The notes under the pieces were generated by a model, which worked only from the letters and a program-made list of their open reading frames with translations, searched no databases and was not told the DNA's origin. Both the position numbers and the translations under genes were made by a program. Below, one piece after another: positions 7,542-18,057 of a stretch of DNA of 21,921 nt. The stretch's first letter is position 1; every line of letters begins with the position of its first letter. Origin of the DNA: a virus. Location: positions 1-21,921 of the IMG/VR virus record IMGVR_UViG_3300009437_000029; one strand, written 5' to 3'.

Positions 7542-7555
<14 letters not shown>
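5852..7555 (+). CDS. 20: Portal vertex protein, gp20-like
   Basis: A 567-aa portal of the T4 gp20 family, which forms a dodecamer at one capsid vertex, starts head assembly, threads DNA and joins the neck. Signatures include 'MRYRGVSMNPEVDMAIEEIVNE' early on (residues about 68-90), the stretch around 'LARAPERRIFYIDVGNLP' (about 261-280), 'LEDFWLPRREGGRGTEISTL' and 'LNVPVNRLEQEAQFSLGRS', all conserved in T4-like portals. The C-terminus is extended by a Pro/Glu-rich linker (about 496-522, four EP units) and a charged helical end, making it longer than T4 gp20 (524 aa). ATG 5852 follows AGGAA. Its last 14 bases overlap the collagen-like gene, an unusual neighbour for a portal. Confidence 0.96.
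7352..7375 (+). repeat. Hexanucleotide repeat GAACCA x4 in gene 20
   Basis: Four tandem GAACCA units encode Glu-Pro repeats (portal residues 501-508) within a Pro/Glu-rich linker, followed by a GAA run. Units of six bases can expand or contract by slippage without shifting the frame. Confidence 0.85.
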
Positions 7556-8621
<1,066 letters not shown>

Positions 8622-13038: not shown

Positions 13039-13046
13039 TATAAATA
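13039..13046 (+). promoter_or_regulatory. T4-type late promoter box before the 833-aa gene
   Basis: Exact TATAAATA seven bases after the stop of the 687-aa gene. The expected start near 13052 gives a leader of about 29 bases with an AGGAT ribosome-binding site. Confidence 0.85.
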
Positions 13047-13080: not shown

Positions 13081-15582
13081 ATGTCAGGCGAAAAGAAATT
13101 TACTAGGATACCACCGGAGAGTACTGGCGACCGTGTGTACATGGTACATACTGCCGAGATTGGGTTCAAGGACTTCAACGTTGTTCCTGCGGGTTCTACT
13201 GATCATGTGTGGAAAACAGGAGAATTGTACGACATCTCTGGTTTCGGAGGTAATGGCAAGGTTCATGTCCATGGAGATTATGTCAATGGCGAAACAGGTC
13301 TTCTGGCGGTTCACTATAACAAAACTGCCAAGTTTGAAAATTTAGTTCCTGCTGTTGATGCTGTCATATCATACAAAGGGACAGATATTGCAATAGTAAC
13401 TAATGCTTATGATGTATACATTCCTACTCAAAACATTATGGGGTTTGATAACCCAGAATTTGGTCTTGATATTGATCGCTTCGGCTCTGCTCAAATTACT
13501 TTTGGTGAAGGTGCTCCAGAGATTAATGGTTTTGGTGCGTTACGTATCGCAAACTCAAGGGTAATCGCACAGTATAACTTTTCGCAAAGTGCTTTGCCTG
13601 ACCAATTTGCTAATACTCAAGTTGGAACGGGGTCTGCTACGTATGAAGCAGATAGACGTTGGGTTAAACTCAGTGTTGCAGGTGATGCCTCTGGCGGAGC
13701 AGACAACGATTTAACAACAAACACTTCTCACTTATATCACCCAGTAACCTATGGATCAACAAACCTTCTTGTAATGGGCACACGGTTGCCTGATGCTGGT
13801 GTTGCGGGTCTTGTTAGGAACTGGGGTTCATTTGATGCAACAGATGGATTTATGTTTCGTTTGGTCGGAACATCACTAGGGGTTGTTCATCGACACACTT
13901 TCAATGCAAATTATGTTAGTGCCAATAAAACAGAAAACTTTATTGCTCAGGCAGATTGGAATAGAGACACGCTTCTGGGTACAGGCGGAACCACAAACAA
14001 ATCAGGTGTTACATTAGATGTAACCAAAGCAAACGCATACTGGATCGACTTTCAACAGTTGGGCGGGGGTACGATTCGCTGGGGTATTTTTGCTGGTGGT
14101 GAACGAATTATTTGTCACGAAATGGACATGGGTAATGGTGGTCCTGCTGGCACTTGGGTTACTAATGCGGTAGCAAATAGTGCAAGACCTATCTGTTGGG
14201 CAATGAAACGCATTGACATTACACAAGATCCAGGTGGTCCAGAAAGATCTTTTTATTCTTTGGGTGCTACGGTATGGACGGATGCAGATGTAGAACCAAT
14301 TCAAGAATACGGAAAACCAGGAAATTTTGACGCAGTGTTTGCAATTGATGAAAACACCACGCAAAGAGGTGTTCCTTATACTCAAGGGGCATACTATCTA
14401 ACTTCTTTAAAACCATCTGTTAGTTATCCTAACGGACAAGACAATCATACCATATACACTCCTAAAAAATTGGATGTCAATTGTTTCAATCAAGATGGAT
14501 CACGCCCAGACGGGGAAATTAGAGTATTCTTACAGTGTATACTGCGTGGTGAAAACTTCAATACACCATCGTATAGTACATTGGAATACGATGGGCAGAA
14601 TGCGTCTTCATCTGTTACTGGTGGTGTTCGATCTATATACAATCAAAAAGGAAATCACGTAGGACACGGTCCTGAGATTTTCAGAGTGCCCATAAGTCAA
14701 GGTGTTGGTCAGTTGGACATGGGCGATATCTTTGACAATATTCAATACGGTGCTGTTCGACCTAATGCTGAAGCATTTGTTGCTTTTAGATCACAACCGC
14801 TTGCGAATATCAATGCACAAGATGATCACAATGCCGTGGGTTCATTAGTAGGTTCTACTTTCGGTGCTGGTAAAGTAAGTATTCAAGTTGGCACTAATCC
14901 ACTTAATGGCGGCAACGTTCACTTCTTCGAGGATCGTGCGCCCATTACTATTACAGGAGTTTCAGGACTAACTACTGGACCAGAAACATTAACAGGCACG
15001 TATTATCTTTCGTTCATCGACGGTAACGAAGCATTCTTGTATGATAGTGCCGCAGGTGGTTTGACGACACTAGAAGACGATAGAGATTGTCGTGTGATTA
15101 ACTTTACACCATCAACTGTTCCTCTTGGCATTTCTGAAGATGATTCGTGTTCAGTTGCTGGTATAGGTAGTGCATATGTATTAGACTATGATTCTGATGC
15201 CGGTAACATATATCTACACGGAAGAACTGTTGCGGCGCTCGATGATACTGTTGCGGGCGGAACGGCATTCACCGTAGCATCTGCGACGAATACCAGTCTG
15301 CTTGCTACCACGTTAATAGCAATCAACAAAACCGGTGTTAGTAATTATCCCAAAGACTACAAGACAACATTAGGCGCAGTTAATTCTTCTGGGTGGTCGC
15401 AACCAACACTTGATGTTGCATCTATCGGAAACATTAGGGGTCTTGCGCCGAAATCACCTGTTTGGACATTCATGTATAATCCTATTGGTGGCGACGATCT
15501 TGGGTTACAACCTGGTGGAGCATCTGGTCCAGAAAGAACCTTCGTTACATTCAATCTCACTTGGAAAGAATTAAGTCAGTAA
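13081..15582 (+). CDS. Multidomain virion protein with marine-phage beta domain and E1-FCCH-like module
   Basis: An 833-aa protein. Residues about 150-405 form a beta-sandwich-like domain with core motifs 'QADWNRDTLLG', 'SGVTLDVTKANAYWIDFQQLG', 'IRWGIFAGGE' and 'CHEMDMGN' (288-352). This pattern of W-N, G-V-T-L-D, I-D-F-x-x-L-G, I-R-W/F-G and H-x-x-x-x-x-N recurs in many phage tail-associated proteins of unknown function. Residues about 608-665 ('PITITGVSGL', 'LTGTYYLSFIDGNEAFLYD') resemble the E1-FCCH-like modules often inserted in tail proteins. The C-terminus ends in 'TFVTFNLTWKELSQ'. No enzyme motif is visible. It has its own late promoter, and its stop overlaps the next ATG. Baseplate or fibre component is my inference. 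Confidence 0.75.
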   Translation: MSGEKKFTRIPPESTGDRVYMVHTAEIGFKDFNVVPAGSTDHVWKTGELYDISGFGGNGKVHVHGDYVNGETGLLAVHYNKTAKFENLVPAVDAVISYKGTDIAIVTNAYDVYIPTQNIMGFDNPEFGLDIDRFGSAQITFGEGAPEINGFGALRIANSRVIAQYNFSQSALPDQFANTQVGTGSATYEADRRWVKLSVAGDASGGADNDLTTNTSHLYHPVTYGSTNLLVMGTRLPDAGVAGLVRNWGSFDATDGFMFRLVGTSLGVVHRHTFNANYVSANKTENFIAQADWNRDTLLGTGGTTNKSGVTLDVTKANAYWIDFQQLGGGTIRWGIFAGGERIICHEMDMGNGGPAGTWVTNAVANSARPICWAMKRIDITQDPGGPERSFYSLGATVWTDADVEPIQEYGKPGNFDAVFAIDENTTQRGVPYTQGAYYLTSLKPSVSYPNGQDNHTIYTPKKLDVNCFNQDGSRPDGEIRVFLQCILRGENFNTPSYSTLEYDGQNASSSVTGGVRSIYNQKGNHVGHGPEIFRVPISQGVGQLDMGDIFDNIQYGAVRPNAEAFVAFRSQPLANINAQDDHNAVGSLVGSTFGAGKVSIQVGTNPLNGGNVHFFEDRAPITITGVSGLTTGPETLTGTYYLSFIDGNEAFLYDSAAGGLTTLEDDRDCRVINFTPSTVPLGISEDDSCSVAGIGSAYVLDYDSDAGNIYLHGRTVAALDDTVAGGTAFTVASATNTSLLATTLIAINKTGVSNYPKDYKTTLGAVNSSGWSQPTLDVASIGNIRGLAPKSPVWTFMYNPIGGDDLGLQPGGASGPERTFVTFNLTWKELSQ

Positions 15583-16217
15583 TGCCTAGTTTAATATTCA
15601 ACTATGGTTCTTGGTGGAACTGGGAGACTGCCGCAGCAGGTGGTTATCCTAATCAAAAAGTTGCGTTTGATGGACGTAATAAAATCATCTATGTTAATGA
15701 GGGTGTCACTGACCTCGACGTAAAAATTGACATCTATTCAGCGTGGAAAGAGTGGACTTTGTTTTCTCCTGAGTATCCTGTCGCAATTGGTTGGAAAGAA
15801 GCAATCAGTGCAATTGGTGGTGAACCACTGAACGATACACTGAACGTTGGTAGTACATTCTTCTTAGAGAATAACTGGAGAATACAACCGTTTGCGTCTA
15901 AAGATCCATATGTTTTGACTGTGAATGGTAACATTTATACGCGAGAGGCGGGAGGTAATCCGTTCTTGTTTGCAGAAGGTGTCTCGGTAAACCTGACACG
16001 TTCTAATTTGGTCGATCAGTTAGTAGCAAATGCTACAGTAACAGAAGCAGATTATCTTGCAATAGCGCAGAAAGTTTGGGAATATTCTACTTTAGTATCT
16101 ACGGGCGGAAATACTTACGGAACATTAACCAAAGGTATTGATAGCGATCAAACTATTATTTCGACCAAGGTCGATAAAACTTTAACGACCGGAGAATATT
16201 TGGCGTTTCAAAAATGA
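15582..16217 (+). CDS. Conserved phage structural protein, function unknown
   Basis: A 211-aa protein. The frame is open upstream to a TTG at 15561, but ATG 15582 overlaps the upstream stop as TAATG, like other junctions here, so I use it. The core (28-120) has 'KIIYVNEGVTDLDVKIDIYSAWKEW', shown here as a pattern of beta strand then I-Y-S-x-W-K-E-W, followed by 'AISAIGGEPL', 'STFFLENNWRIQPF' and 'YVLTVNGNIYTREAG'. I recognise this order from small virion proteins of many tailed phages; the role is not established. The C-terminal 70 residues are helical with a D-Y-x-x-I-A-x-x-V-W-E-Y segment. It lies between a large virion protein and the glycosyltransferase gene, overlapping the latter as ATGA. 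Tail or fibre attachment is possible. Confidence 0.78.
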   Translation: MPSLIFNYGSWWNWETAAAGGYPNQKVAFDGRNKIIYVNEGVTDLDVKIDIYSAWKEWTLFSPEYPVAIGWKEAISAIGGEPLNDTLNVGSTFFLENNWRIQPFASKDPYVLTVNGNIYTREAGGNPFLFAEGVSVNLTRSNLVDQLVANATVTEADYLAIAQKVWEYSTLVSTGGNTYGTLTKGIDSDQTIISTKVDKTLTTGEYLAFQK

Positions 16218-16987
16218 TTTATGAAATCCGCGAGAGAGGCGGTCTTGGTGATGTTGTAAAATGGACTGCATATTTTAAAAAATTTTCTACAGAAAAAGAT
16301 ACGTTTCAATATCTTTTAAAAAGTCACGGCGGCGGACCTGCTTGTTGGGAACGTTTTAAATTATGTTTTGAACTTTTCGATATAAAATCTGAGTTAAGAT
16401 CAGTCGATTTTGATTCATATTATCACCCCGATCGCATTTTTAATATGGGTAATCCAGAGTATGCCTCATATGATAATCCAGTATATTATGAAGGTATAAA
16501 TGAAAAATATTTATGGAATCCTACTAAAAATTATGTAGGAGTTTATTTAAACAACGATAGAGATGGGTGGAGAGTAAGAAAACAAAATTTTGAAGACTCT
16601 GGCAAATCTGGATATGATGAGGATATGAAAAAGTGGAATTTTTATAAACTTCTGCCGCAGAAAACTCAAGAAGACATATTAGATTTACTTGTTGAGCATA
16701 ACATAAATTATTCTATATTAGGTTTACCACATAGAGATTTTTATTCTTCTTTAAAAGTAATGAGAAACTCGGCGTTTTGCATAGGTATAGAAGGCGGGTG
16801 GGCGCATATGGCGCATGCATTAAAAGTTCCGTATATCTGTTTGTTAGACGGACCATTGGATATTGCGAATATGGCGCATCCGTTTAACCCATATATACAG
16901 TATGTTAGAACAAAACATTTACATAAGTTTTTTGAAAGTGAATTAATTAGTAAGTATTTAAATTTAGAAATATACAAAGGAGTATAA
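16214..16987 (+). CDS. Glycosyltransferase family 9-like (GT-B) enzyme
   Basis: A 257-aa protein with the two ends of a heptosyltransferase-type GT-B fold. The N-terminus has a 'GGLGDVV' loop (9-15), like the G-x-L-G-D-V of ADP-heptose transferases. Near the C-terminus 'GIEGGWAHMAHALKVPYICLLDG' (191-213, cited as family motif) mirrors the sugar-nucleotide-binding G-x-D-x-G-x-x-H-x-A-x-A-L-x-V-P. Proteins of this family move a sugar from a nucleotide donor to an acceptor; donor and acceptor here are unknown. It is shorter than cellular members. It overlaps the preceding structural gene by ATGA and is followed within 2 bases by gene 67, so it is made late with virion proteins. It is visibly more A+T-rich than the structural genes. 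Modification of a virion protein is inference; host surface modification is the alternative. Confidence 0.72.
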   Translation: MIYEIRERGGLGDVVKWTAYFKKFSTEKDTFQYLLKSHGGGPACWERFKLCFELFDIKSELRSVDFDSYYHPDRIFNMGNPEYASYDNPVYYEGINEKYLWNPTKNYVGVYLNNDRDGWRVRKQNFEDSGKSGYDEDMKKWNFYKLLPQKTQEDILDLLVEHNINYSILGLPHRDFYSSLKVMRNSAFCIGIEGGWAHMAHALKVPYICLLDGPLDIANMAHPFNPYIQYVRTKHLHKFFESELISKYLNLEIYKGV

Positions 16988-16988
16988 A

Positions 16989-17294
16989 ATGCCTGATAAT
17001 GATGTAGACGCAGCAACAATTACTATTCCAGATTTGTTATCTGCGATAAAAGATGATAATTTTACTTTAGCAGGTAATCAATTTAATGATTTGGTTAATG
17101 ACAAATTACAAAATAGTTTAAATCAAAATAGAATTAGACTAGCGAGTCAAATTTTTAATGGAGAAGGTCTTCCTGTAGATAACGAAGAAGAAATCGAAGA
17201 TGAAGAACTTGAACTAGAATTAGAAGATGAAGAACTTGAAGACGAAGAGTTTGATGCAGACGAAGAGTTTGATGAAGACGAAGTTGAAAATTAA
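16989..17294 (+). CDS. 67: Prohead core protein, gp67-like
   Basis: A 101-aa protein with the T4 gp67 layout: a short N-terminal helical part (15-58, 'LLSAIKDDNFTLAGNQFNDL' then 'RIRLASQIFNGE') and a strongly acidic tail. Of residues 66-100, 26 are Asp or Glu. In T4, gp67 is part of the prohead core and is cut to a small acidic internal peptide by gp21. AAAGGAGTATAAA is a strong ribosome-binding site. It follows the glycosyltransferase gene by one base and is separated from gene 68 by a methyltransferase gene, unlike T4 where 67 and 68 are adjacent. A late promoter starts right after its stop. Confidence 0.85.
   Translation: MPDNDVDAATITIPDLLSAIKDDNFTLAGNQFNDLVNDKLQNSLNQNRIRLASQIFNGEGLPVDNEEEIEDEELELELEDEELEDEEFDADEEFDEDEVEN
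17196..17274 (+). repeat. Short direct repeats in the acidic tail of gene 67
   Basis: GAAGATGAAGAACTTGAA occurs at 17196-17213 and 17223-17240, and GACGAAGAGTTTGATG at 17241-17256 and 17259-17274. Spacings of 27 and 18 bases keep the frame, consistent with growth of the acidic tail by in-frame duplication. Confidence 0.8.
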
Positions 17295-17299
17295 ATTTT

Positions 17300-17307
17300 T
17301 ATAAATA
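17300..17307 (+). promoter_or_regulatory. T4-type late promoter box before the methyltransferase gene
   Basis: Exact TATAAATA six bases after the gene 67 stop. The expected start near 17313 leaves only about 7 bases before the ATG at 17320, with no Shine-Dalgarno sequence. This promoter can also drive 68, 21, 22 and 23. Confidence 0.8.
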
Positions 17308-17319
17308 TTCCTACTAATA

Positions 17320-18057
17320 ATGAATGTTTTAACAGAAGATAAAACTAAAATATCTAGAGATTGGGGAGTTCAAGCATACCTCGATCAACTGTCTCACGAT
17401 TATCAGTTGTACTTGAGTAAGTTAGCAGATACTGGATTCGATATAAAAAAACATTCTTATAGTTTGCAATATTGTAGATCTGAAGTATATAGAGCACATT
17501 TAAATTTATGTAATGATATAGCGACTGGAGTATGTGAAGACAATAAAAAATATTTAAATATTGGATGCGGAGGAGGGTTTTTAGAAAAAATTTTTCTTGA
17601 CAGAGGTAAAGAAGAAAATATTATCGGAGTTGATTGGAACTACACTGATTTGTTTTTTCAACCAATAAGGAACGGATTTAAAGTTGCAGAAATGACGTCT
17701 TTTCAAGTTAACAATTTGGTAACTTCTAAAAGATACAAGATACATAATAAATATTCTGGTAATACTTTAATGCATAAAGATTTTGATGCTATAATATTAA
17801 TTAGGTTTAATGCTTTTTGGGACACTAAAGTAAGAAATTTTGATTCATCAAAACAGTTTGAATACATAAAATTTTTTTTACGCTCTGTTAAAAAATATTC
17901 TAACAAACTTATTTGGATAACACAAACTGATTCTTTTGTTCATTTTGATAAACTGACTAGAAATTATTTAGATAGTATAGTGGTAGAACATAATGATCAT
18001 ATAATGGATCATAAATCAGCAACGTTAGTTTTAGATTTAGAAAAAGTAGTAATATGA
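17320..18057 (+). CDS. Class I SAM-dependent methyltransferase
   Basis: A 245-aa protein with a Rossmann-type methyltransferase core. Motif I is 'YLNIGCGGGFLEKIF' (78-92), the acidic residue for the SAM ribose is Asp105 in 'IIGVDWNY', and motif II is 'FDAIILIRFNAFWD' (155-168) followed by helix 'FEYIKFFLRSVKKYSNKLIWI'. The first 75 residues are helical and may bind the substrate. There is no N-P-P-Y or D-P-P-Y DNA-adenine motif and no P-C cytosine motif, so DNA methylation is not supported; a small molecule, sugar or protein target is more likely. The 10 bases before ATG 17320 contain no ribosome-binding site, and the gene is very A+T-rich. Its end overlaps gene 68 by ATGA. It splits the usual 67-68 pair. 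Confidence 0.8.
   Translation: MNVLTEDKTKISRDWGVQAYLDQLSHDYQLYLSKLADTGFDIKKHSYSLQYCRSEVYRAHLNLCNDIATGVCEDNKKYLNIGCGGGFLEKIFLDRGKEENIIGVDWNYTDLFFQPIRNGFKVAEMTSFQVNNLVTSKRYKIHNKYSGNTLMHKDFDAIILIRFNAFWDTKVRNFDSSKQFEYIKFFLRSVKKYSNKLIWITQTDSFVHFDKLTRNYLDSIVVEHNDHIMDHKSATLVLDLEKVVI

Follow-up and report, generated by a model that had tools for sequence, protein, structure and literature searches.

The head operon of a marine T4-type phage carries a small gene (hereafter the GT ORF) whose product, as judged from its sequence and those of its relatives, very probably has a GT9-like fold and is co-expressed with virion proteins late in infection. The explanation that best accounts for the observations as a whole, although we hold it tentatively, is that this gene encodes an accessory late GT9-like glycosyltransferase with a virion protein as its first-choice acceptor. 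The DNA analysed is the whole of a 21,921-nt virus record (IMGVR_UViG_3300009437_000029, hereafter the window), which was identified as a T4-type head operon by ORF, Pfam and PHROG annotation. It comprises genes for the large terminase, sheath, tube, portal, a collagen-like protein, several large ORFs, a gp67-like ORF, the prohead protease, the scaffold and the major capsid protein. The latter is 63% identical to its counterpart in Phage C48C1 (Kyanoviridae), and it is also near those of Methylophilales, Pelagibacter and Synechococcus myoviruses. The collagen-like protein (7542-8621; Pfam Collagen, E=8e-28) is encoded directly 3′ of the portal gene, and of the loci retrieved by way of the prohead protease only L015 also gave a collagen-like match.

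The GT ORF (16214..16987, + strand) codes for 257 aa from an ATG start, its stop codon lying within these coordinates. Its ATG shares an ATGA (16214..16217, + strand) with the TGA, ending at 16217, of p218 (15561..16217, + strand), the conserved ORF on its 5′ side. On its 3′ side, base 16988 alone separates it from the ATG at 16989 of a gp67-like prohead core ORF (16989..17294, + strand), which is identified, with modest support, by PHROG 1064 (“prohead”, E=7.6e-4) and by gene position. The ORF, the overlap, the one-base gap and both protein motifs are as a previous reading of the sequence alone (hereafter the sequence-only reading) had described them. The same gene and junctions are found in a separately assembled contig, L001, which differs by 7 SNPs over 5,319 bases, all outside the GT ORF; thus, the locus is not an assembly chimera. 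Further 5′ lies the gene for p833 (13081..15582, + strand; PHROG 1645), a virion structural protein that opens the late unit containing the GT ORF. The TTG start listed for p218 (15561-15582) runs into p833 and, as most relatives begin about 18 bases downstream, the real start is probably an ATG at about 15582, directly after p833.

Exact copies of TATAAATA, the T4 late promoter element, occur six times in the window, all of them on the + strand, against 1.9 expected. Two of these sites, at 13039..13046 (5′ of p833) and 17300..17307 (after gp67), bracket p833, p218, the GT ORF and gp67. Their conservation was assessed in 39 distinct related loci, defined as those containing p218, gp67 and a 67-aa ORF at the position of gene 68. 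The element lies between gp67 and the 67-aa ORF in all of them (39/39), usually 13-14 bases from the start codon of the latter, and it is found between p218 and gp67 in none (0/39). It is also present just 5′ of p833 in the relatives whose sequence covers that stretch. Because of the constant promoter after gp67 and the promoter-free p218-gp67 interval, the GT ORF would belong inside a late unit formed by p833, p218 and gp67 and, lacking its own late promoter, should be read with these three genes. The late, virion-coupled expression put forward in the sequence-only reading is, consequently, well supported by this comparison, in which the conserved late-type promoters flanking the unit seem a better argument than gene spacing.

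The GT ORF itself is an accessory insertion. In L005 and L149, the p218 proteins share 89-91% identity with the window p218 (about 94% at the DNA level in L005) and the empty site is intact, with CAAAAATGA at the end of p218, a short spacer and then gp67. AAAATGA ends p218 in these relatives as well, the GT start codon being formed from bases already present at that end, and the final GT codons provide an RBS-like AAAGGAG for gp67. Its absence from these relatives, in which p218 is almost unchanged, makes the gene dispensable for building the particle. Among the surveyed p218 loci, it is found in the window lineage only, shared with L001/L147. No GT9 match was found in the 146-kb record of a near relative, L152, where positive controls worked, and searches of the relatives' records with PF01075 and with a phage-GT profile (the latter without a positive control) revealed no second copy. 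A possible argument for transfer, the low G+C of the gene (32%), was dropped because it does not discriminate: the values for gp67 (31%), the methyltransferase and the 67-aa ORF (27%) do not exceed it.

The interval between p218 and gp67 receives other cargo in other phages: a Methyltransf_24-like ORF in one other lineage (L021/L182), and acidic or structural ORFs in further loci. A second slot runs from the late promoter to the 67-aa ORF. Accessory methyltransferases occupy it, of several kinds that look unrelated, and the methyltransferase-like ORF of the window (17320..18057, + strand), a neighbour of the GT ORF, is one of them. In this second slot, L053 has an ORF of 261 aa (L053:1005-1787) whose HRYLSH, HRIHH and HEKHH boxes, by eye, suggest a fatty-acid desaturase; nothing in Pfam matched it up to E=1. 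Additionally, a 276-aa ORF of unassigned family (L054:6900-7727), which has an ARTGS loop close to its start, lies between gp67-like and protease genes. Whichever acceptor holds, the survey locates two exact slots for cargo genes in the head operon of such phages, and the near-identical phages with and without the GT ORF offer a clean natural comparison.

By motif, profile and approximate fold, the GT ORF most likely encodes a remote GT9-like protein. It contains G-x-G-D-x-V at residues 10-15 (GLGDVV, codons at 16241..16258, + strand), i.e., the N-terminal G-x-G-D loop with the position of the catalytic Asp, and G-I-E-G-G-W-A-H at residues 191-198, within GIEGGWAHMAHALKVP (residues 191-206, codons at 16784..16831, + strand). 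In the alignments, D13 corresponds to Asp13 of E. coli WaaC and WaaF, and E193 and H198 correspond to the Asp and the His of the GT9 donor loop, D-[ST]-G-x-x-H. The phage loop, E-G-G-W-A-H, departs from that pattern in having Glu for Asp, but keeps the second Gly and the His. K145, invariant in the three phage proteins, is aligned by MAFFT with K192 of WaaC, the donor-phosphate Lys, in the middle of the alignment, which is unreliable. Asp13 is the catalytic base of WaaC. Its equivalent in TibC, Asp-110, has been tested by mutation (PMC4358343).

Searches with the single sequence (Pfam, PHROGs, NCBIfam, PDB and tblastn on phages) gave no significant match, and two scans of genome contigs revealed no relative. 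The score against Pfam GT9 (PF01075) was 11.3 bits (E=0.21), under the gathering cut-off of 22 bits; that against the NCBIfam heptosyltransferases had an E of about 0.16, and TIGR04414 gave 10.9 bits over residues 7-29, under its curated cut-off of 200 bits. As these cut-offs are not reached and the D-[ST]-G-x-x-H loop is not present, the protein is placed in neither PF01075 nor TIGR04414. Relatives were found by pattern scans and alignment search of IMG/VR, with the C-terminal loop as bait. The GxEGGWxH pattern gave 43 viral stretches, nearly all of them by chance; the genuine ones were two remote relatives on other phage contigs, L085 (228 aa) and L103 (236 aa), with 24-25% identity over the alignment, plus the identical L001/L084. 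A looser GxEGGxxHxA pattern made one addition, the GT1-GT9 fusion L099, and a further alignment-based scan added nothing. The N-terminal G-x-G-D-x-[VILMA] motif is present in only 4 of the 1,298 distinct ORFs of at least 150 aa in the fetched loci; these include all three genuine relatives, which have it in the same place and are the sole ORFs with both motifs. As it played no part in finding them, this motif is independent evidence. When residues 185-208 of the GT protein were masked, the residual match to L085 and L103 was no better than that of shuffles and, consequently, the homology rests on the C-terminal loop together with the independent N-terminal motif.

A profile of the three phage proteins gave four distinct matches among 177,635 PDB sequences, all of them GT9 heptosyltransferases (WaaF 1psw, E=0.4; WaaC 2h1f, 2gt1 and 6dfe, E about 1; range 0.4-1.1). 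These matches are weak singly, and their weight would come from the absence of any other family. Against an alignment of E. coli WaaF, WaaC and WaaU, hhalign reached a probability of 85% in the donor-loop region (E=6e-6 for one comparison), and the relative L085 matched Pfam GT9 with E=0.0014 (18.4 bits). The heptosyltransferase-like GT-B identity of the sequence-only reading is, thus, retained as a remote GT9-like one, on the PDB profile, the alignment, hhalign and the fold, whereas the label “GT9” is too firm for a protein that scores at half the Pfam cut-off.

The AF2 model made without relatives was useless (pLDDT 33), and the one made with two relatives is of low confidence (pLDDT 47, pTM 0.52), with a C-terminal half that alternates strand and helix. 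The best VIA-align match of the latter was WaaF (Z=6.7, rmsd 4.1 Å, 153 aligned residues spanning 6-255). WaaC, a Veillonella GT9 and TibC (Z=5.4 over 158 residues) also aligned over almost the full length of the model, while DNPH1-type matches covered its C-terminal half only. Foldseek gave no significant match for this low-confidence model, with E-values of 0.2 or worse. Because Z under 8 is common for models of such quality and the Foldseek matches are non-significant, we take the structure as agreement and not as proof, the two facing Rossmann-like domains of a GT-B fold being putative, and families missing from the fold lists were not treated as evidence. The fold search against GT9 structures that had been suggested earlier, therefore, agrees with the proposal in its best and nearly full-length match, but does so with a model of low quality. 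The best viral structural match was a phage protein annotated as GT9 (E=5e-3). Annotations of GT9-like proteins already exist for uncultured phages, and the GT ORF encodes a divergent protein of this kind in an unusual place.

Among known systems, WaaC and WaaF (PF01075) are the sole PDB families matched by the phage profile and the best full-length structural match, and they share with the phage protein the G-x-G-D loop with Asp13 and a C-terminal G-x-x-H donor loop, then a hydrophobic strand after a Pro. By contrast, the phage protein is shorter (257 aa versus about 320-350), has Glu for the donor-loop Asp and is only about 17% identical. The TibC/Aah autotransporter heptosyltransferases (TIGR04414) have a related GT-B architecture with an N-terminal catalytic Asp and a weak N-terminal match, and provide a precedent for a protein acceptor (PMC4358343), although TibC is larger (over 370 residues) and has iron-finger and thumb elements. 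L085 (9784-10467, minus strand) and L103 (2327-3034, plus strand) carry the same motifs in the same places as the window protein, but on unrelated viral contigs with no virion genes recognised adjoining.

In the mechanism that we favour, a small GT9-like (GT-B) glycosyltransferase gene was inserted right after the p218 stop in one lineage of marine Kyanoviridae-like T4-type phages. Having no promoter of its own, it would be carried on a late p833-p218-GT-gp67 transcript, and its translation would probably be coupled to that of p218 via the ATGA overlap. The sugar would most likely be supplied by a host nucleotide-sugar donor, held by the E193-G-G-W-x-H198 loop, with D13 as the putative catalytic base, and it would be passed to an acceptor present late in infection, the first choice being a co-made virion protein. 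Glycosyl-transfer activity, the donor and the virion acceptor are the steps to which the data point most faintly. A virion protein is preferred as the acceptor because enzyme and virion proteins would be made together and because the fold can act on protein, TibC being a GT9-like enzyme able to glycosylate it (PMC4358343). If virion proteins are indeed glycosylated, this would be a T4-type phage that decorates its own particle by means of an enzyme translationally tied to a virion gene. A more specific version, in which a dedicated protein glycosyltransferase of a T4-type late head operon modifies the phage's own surface proteins (e.g., the collagen-like protein at 7542-8621, p218 or p833) and alters adsorption or recognition, is possible but doubtful.

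The sequence-only reading had drawn virion-protein glycosylation from late expression as a deduction, and as such it is unsupported. Unrelated accessory enzymes (several methyltransferases and a desaturase-like ORF) share the head-gene region in relatives, the enzyme is absent from close relatives whose neighbouring gene is nearly identical, and glycosyltransferases of marine T4-type SAR11 phages are usually read as modifiers of host LPS (PMC7029224). The same reading had set DNA and host lipopolysaccharide aside together; late timing argues against DNA glucosylation, but does not count against a host glycan. Late modification of a host surface glycan (LPS or O-chain) by the same enzyme, e.g., blocking superinfection or the sticking of released virions to debris, is thus a serious rival, although a somewhat unlikely one: the closest solved relatives, WaaC and WaaF, are GT9 enzymes acting on LPS, pelagimyophage glycosyltransferases have been interpreted as O-chain modifiers (PMC7029224), and a slot that accepts unrelated cargo implies that the neighbours of the GT ORF say little about its target. 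On the other hand, expression from the head operon comes late for superinfection exclusion, and no sugar-synthesis gene was identified within the 21.9-kb window, a mere fragment. The glycosyltransferases of pelagimyophages and cyanomyophages are likewise accessory sugar-transfer genes of marine T4-type phages, but they are mostly GT8 and lie mostly in the host-recognition cluster or in small ones, whereas that of the window is GT9-like and lies between head-operon genes (PMC7029224). If it acts on the host, the enzyme would add another accessory modifier of the cell surface, unusually placed.

It is unlikely that the product is a GT-B-like protein other than a transferase onto a macromolecule, i.e., one whose substrate is a nucleotide sugar, a small molecule or a modified nucleotide (cf. 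non-hydrolysing UDP-GlcNAc 2-epimerases), or a degenerate binding protein. Such a role would fit the Asp-to-Glu change in the donor loop, the short length, the uncertain equivalent of WaaC K192, and the NeuC-type epimerases and DNPH1-kind nucleotide hydrolases that Foldseek and VIA-align also return for the C-terminal half. However, the sequence-profile matches in the PDB are all GT9, the GT9-typical N-terminal loop is in the expected place in all three phage relatives, and the best full-length structural match is WaaF. Glycosylation of phage DNA in the style of T4 is very improbable: although T-even phage DNA is modified by GT-B fold enzymes, the T4 enzymes that glucosylate DNA are early or middle products, whereas the GT ORF is in a late unit, a timing on which this role was rejected, and there is neither a hydroxymethylase or similar gene in the 21.9-kb window nor a DNA glucosyltransferase match in Pfam, PHROGs or PDB.

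Two of the contigs retrieved with the glycosyltransferase patterns carry further genes of this kind. In L103, which has a methyltransferase as well as its GT9-like relative, a 2OG-Fe(II) oxygenase (phrog_61, E=3.7e-23) adjoins a glycosyltransferase-like ORF that is, by eye, GT25-like (L103:7117-8456). In L099, a 241-kb viral contig, a C-terminal GT9 domain (L099:5858-6805; Pfam GT9, 37.5 bits) is fused to a domain that is, by eye, GT1-like in a 767-aa protein, and its donor loop likewise reads EGG.
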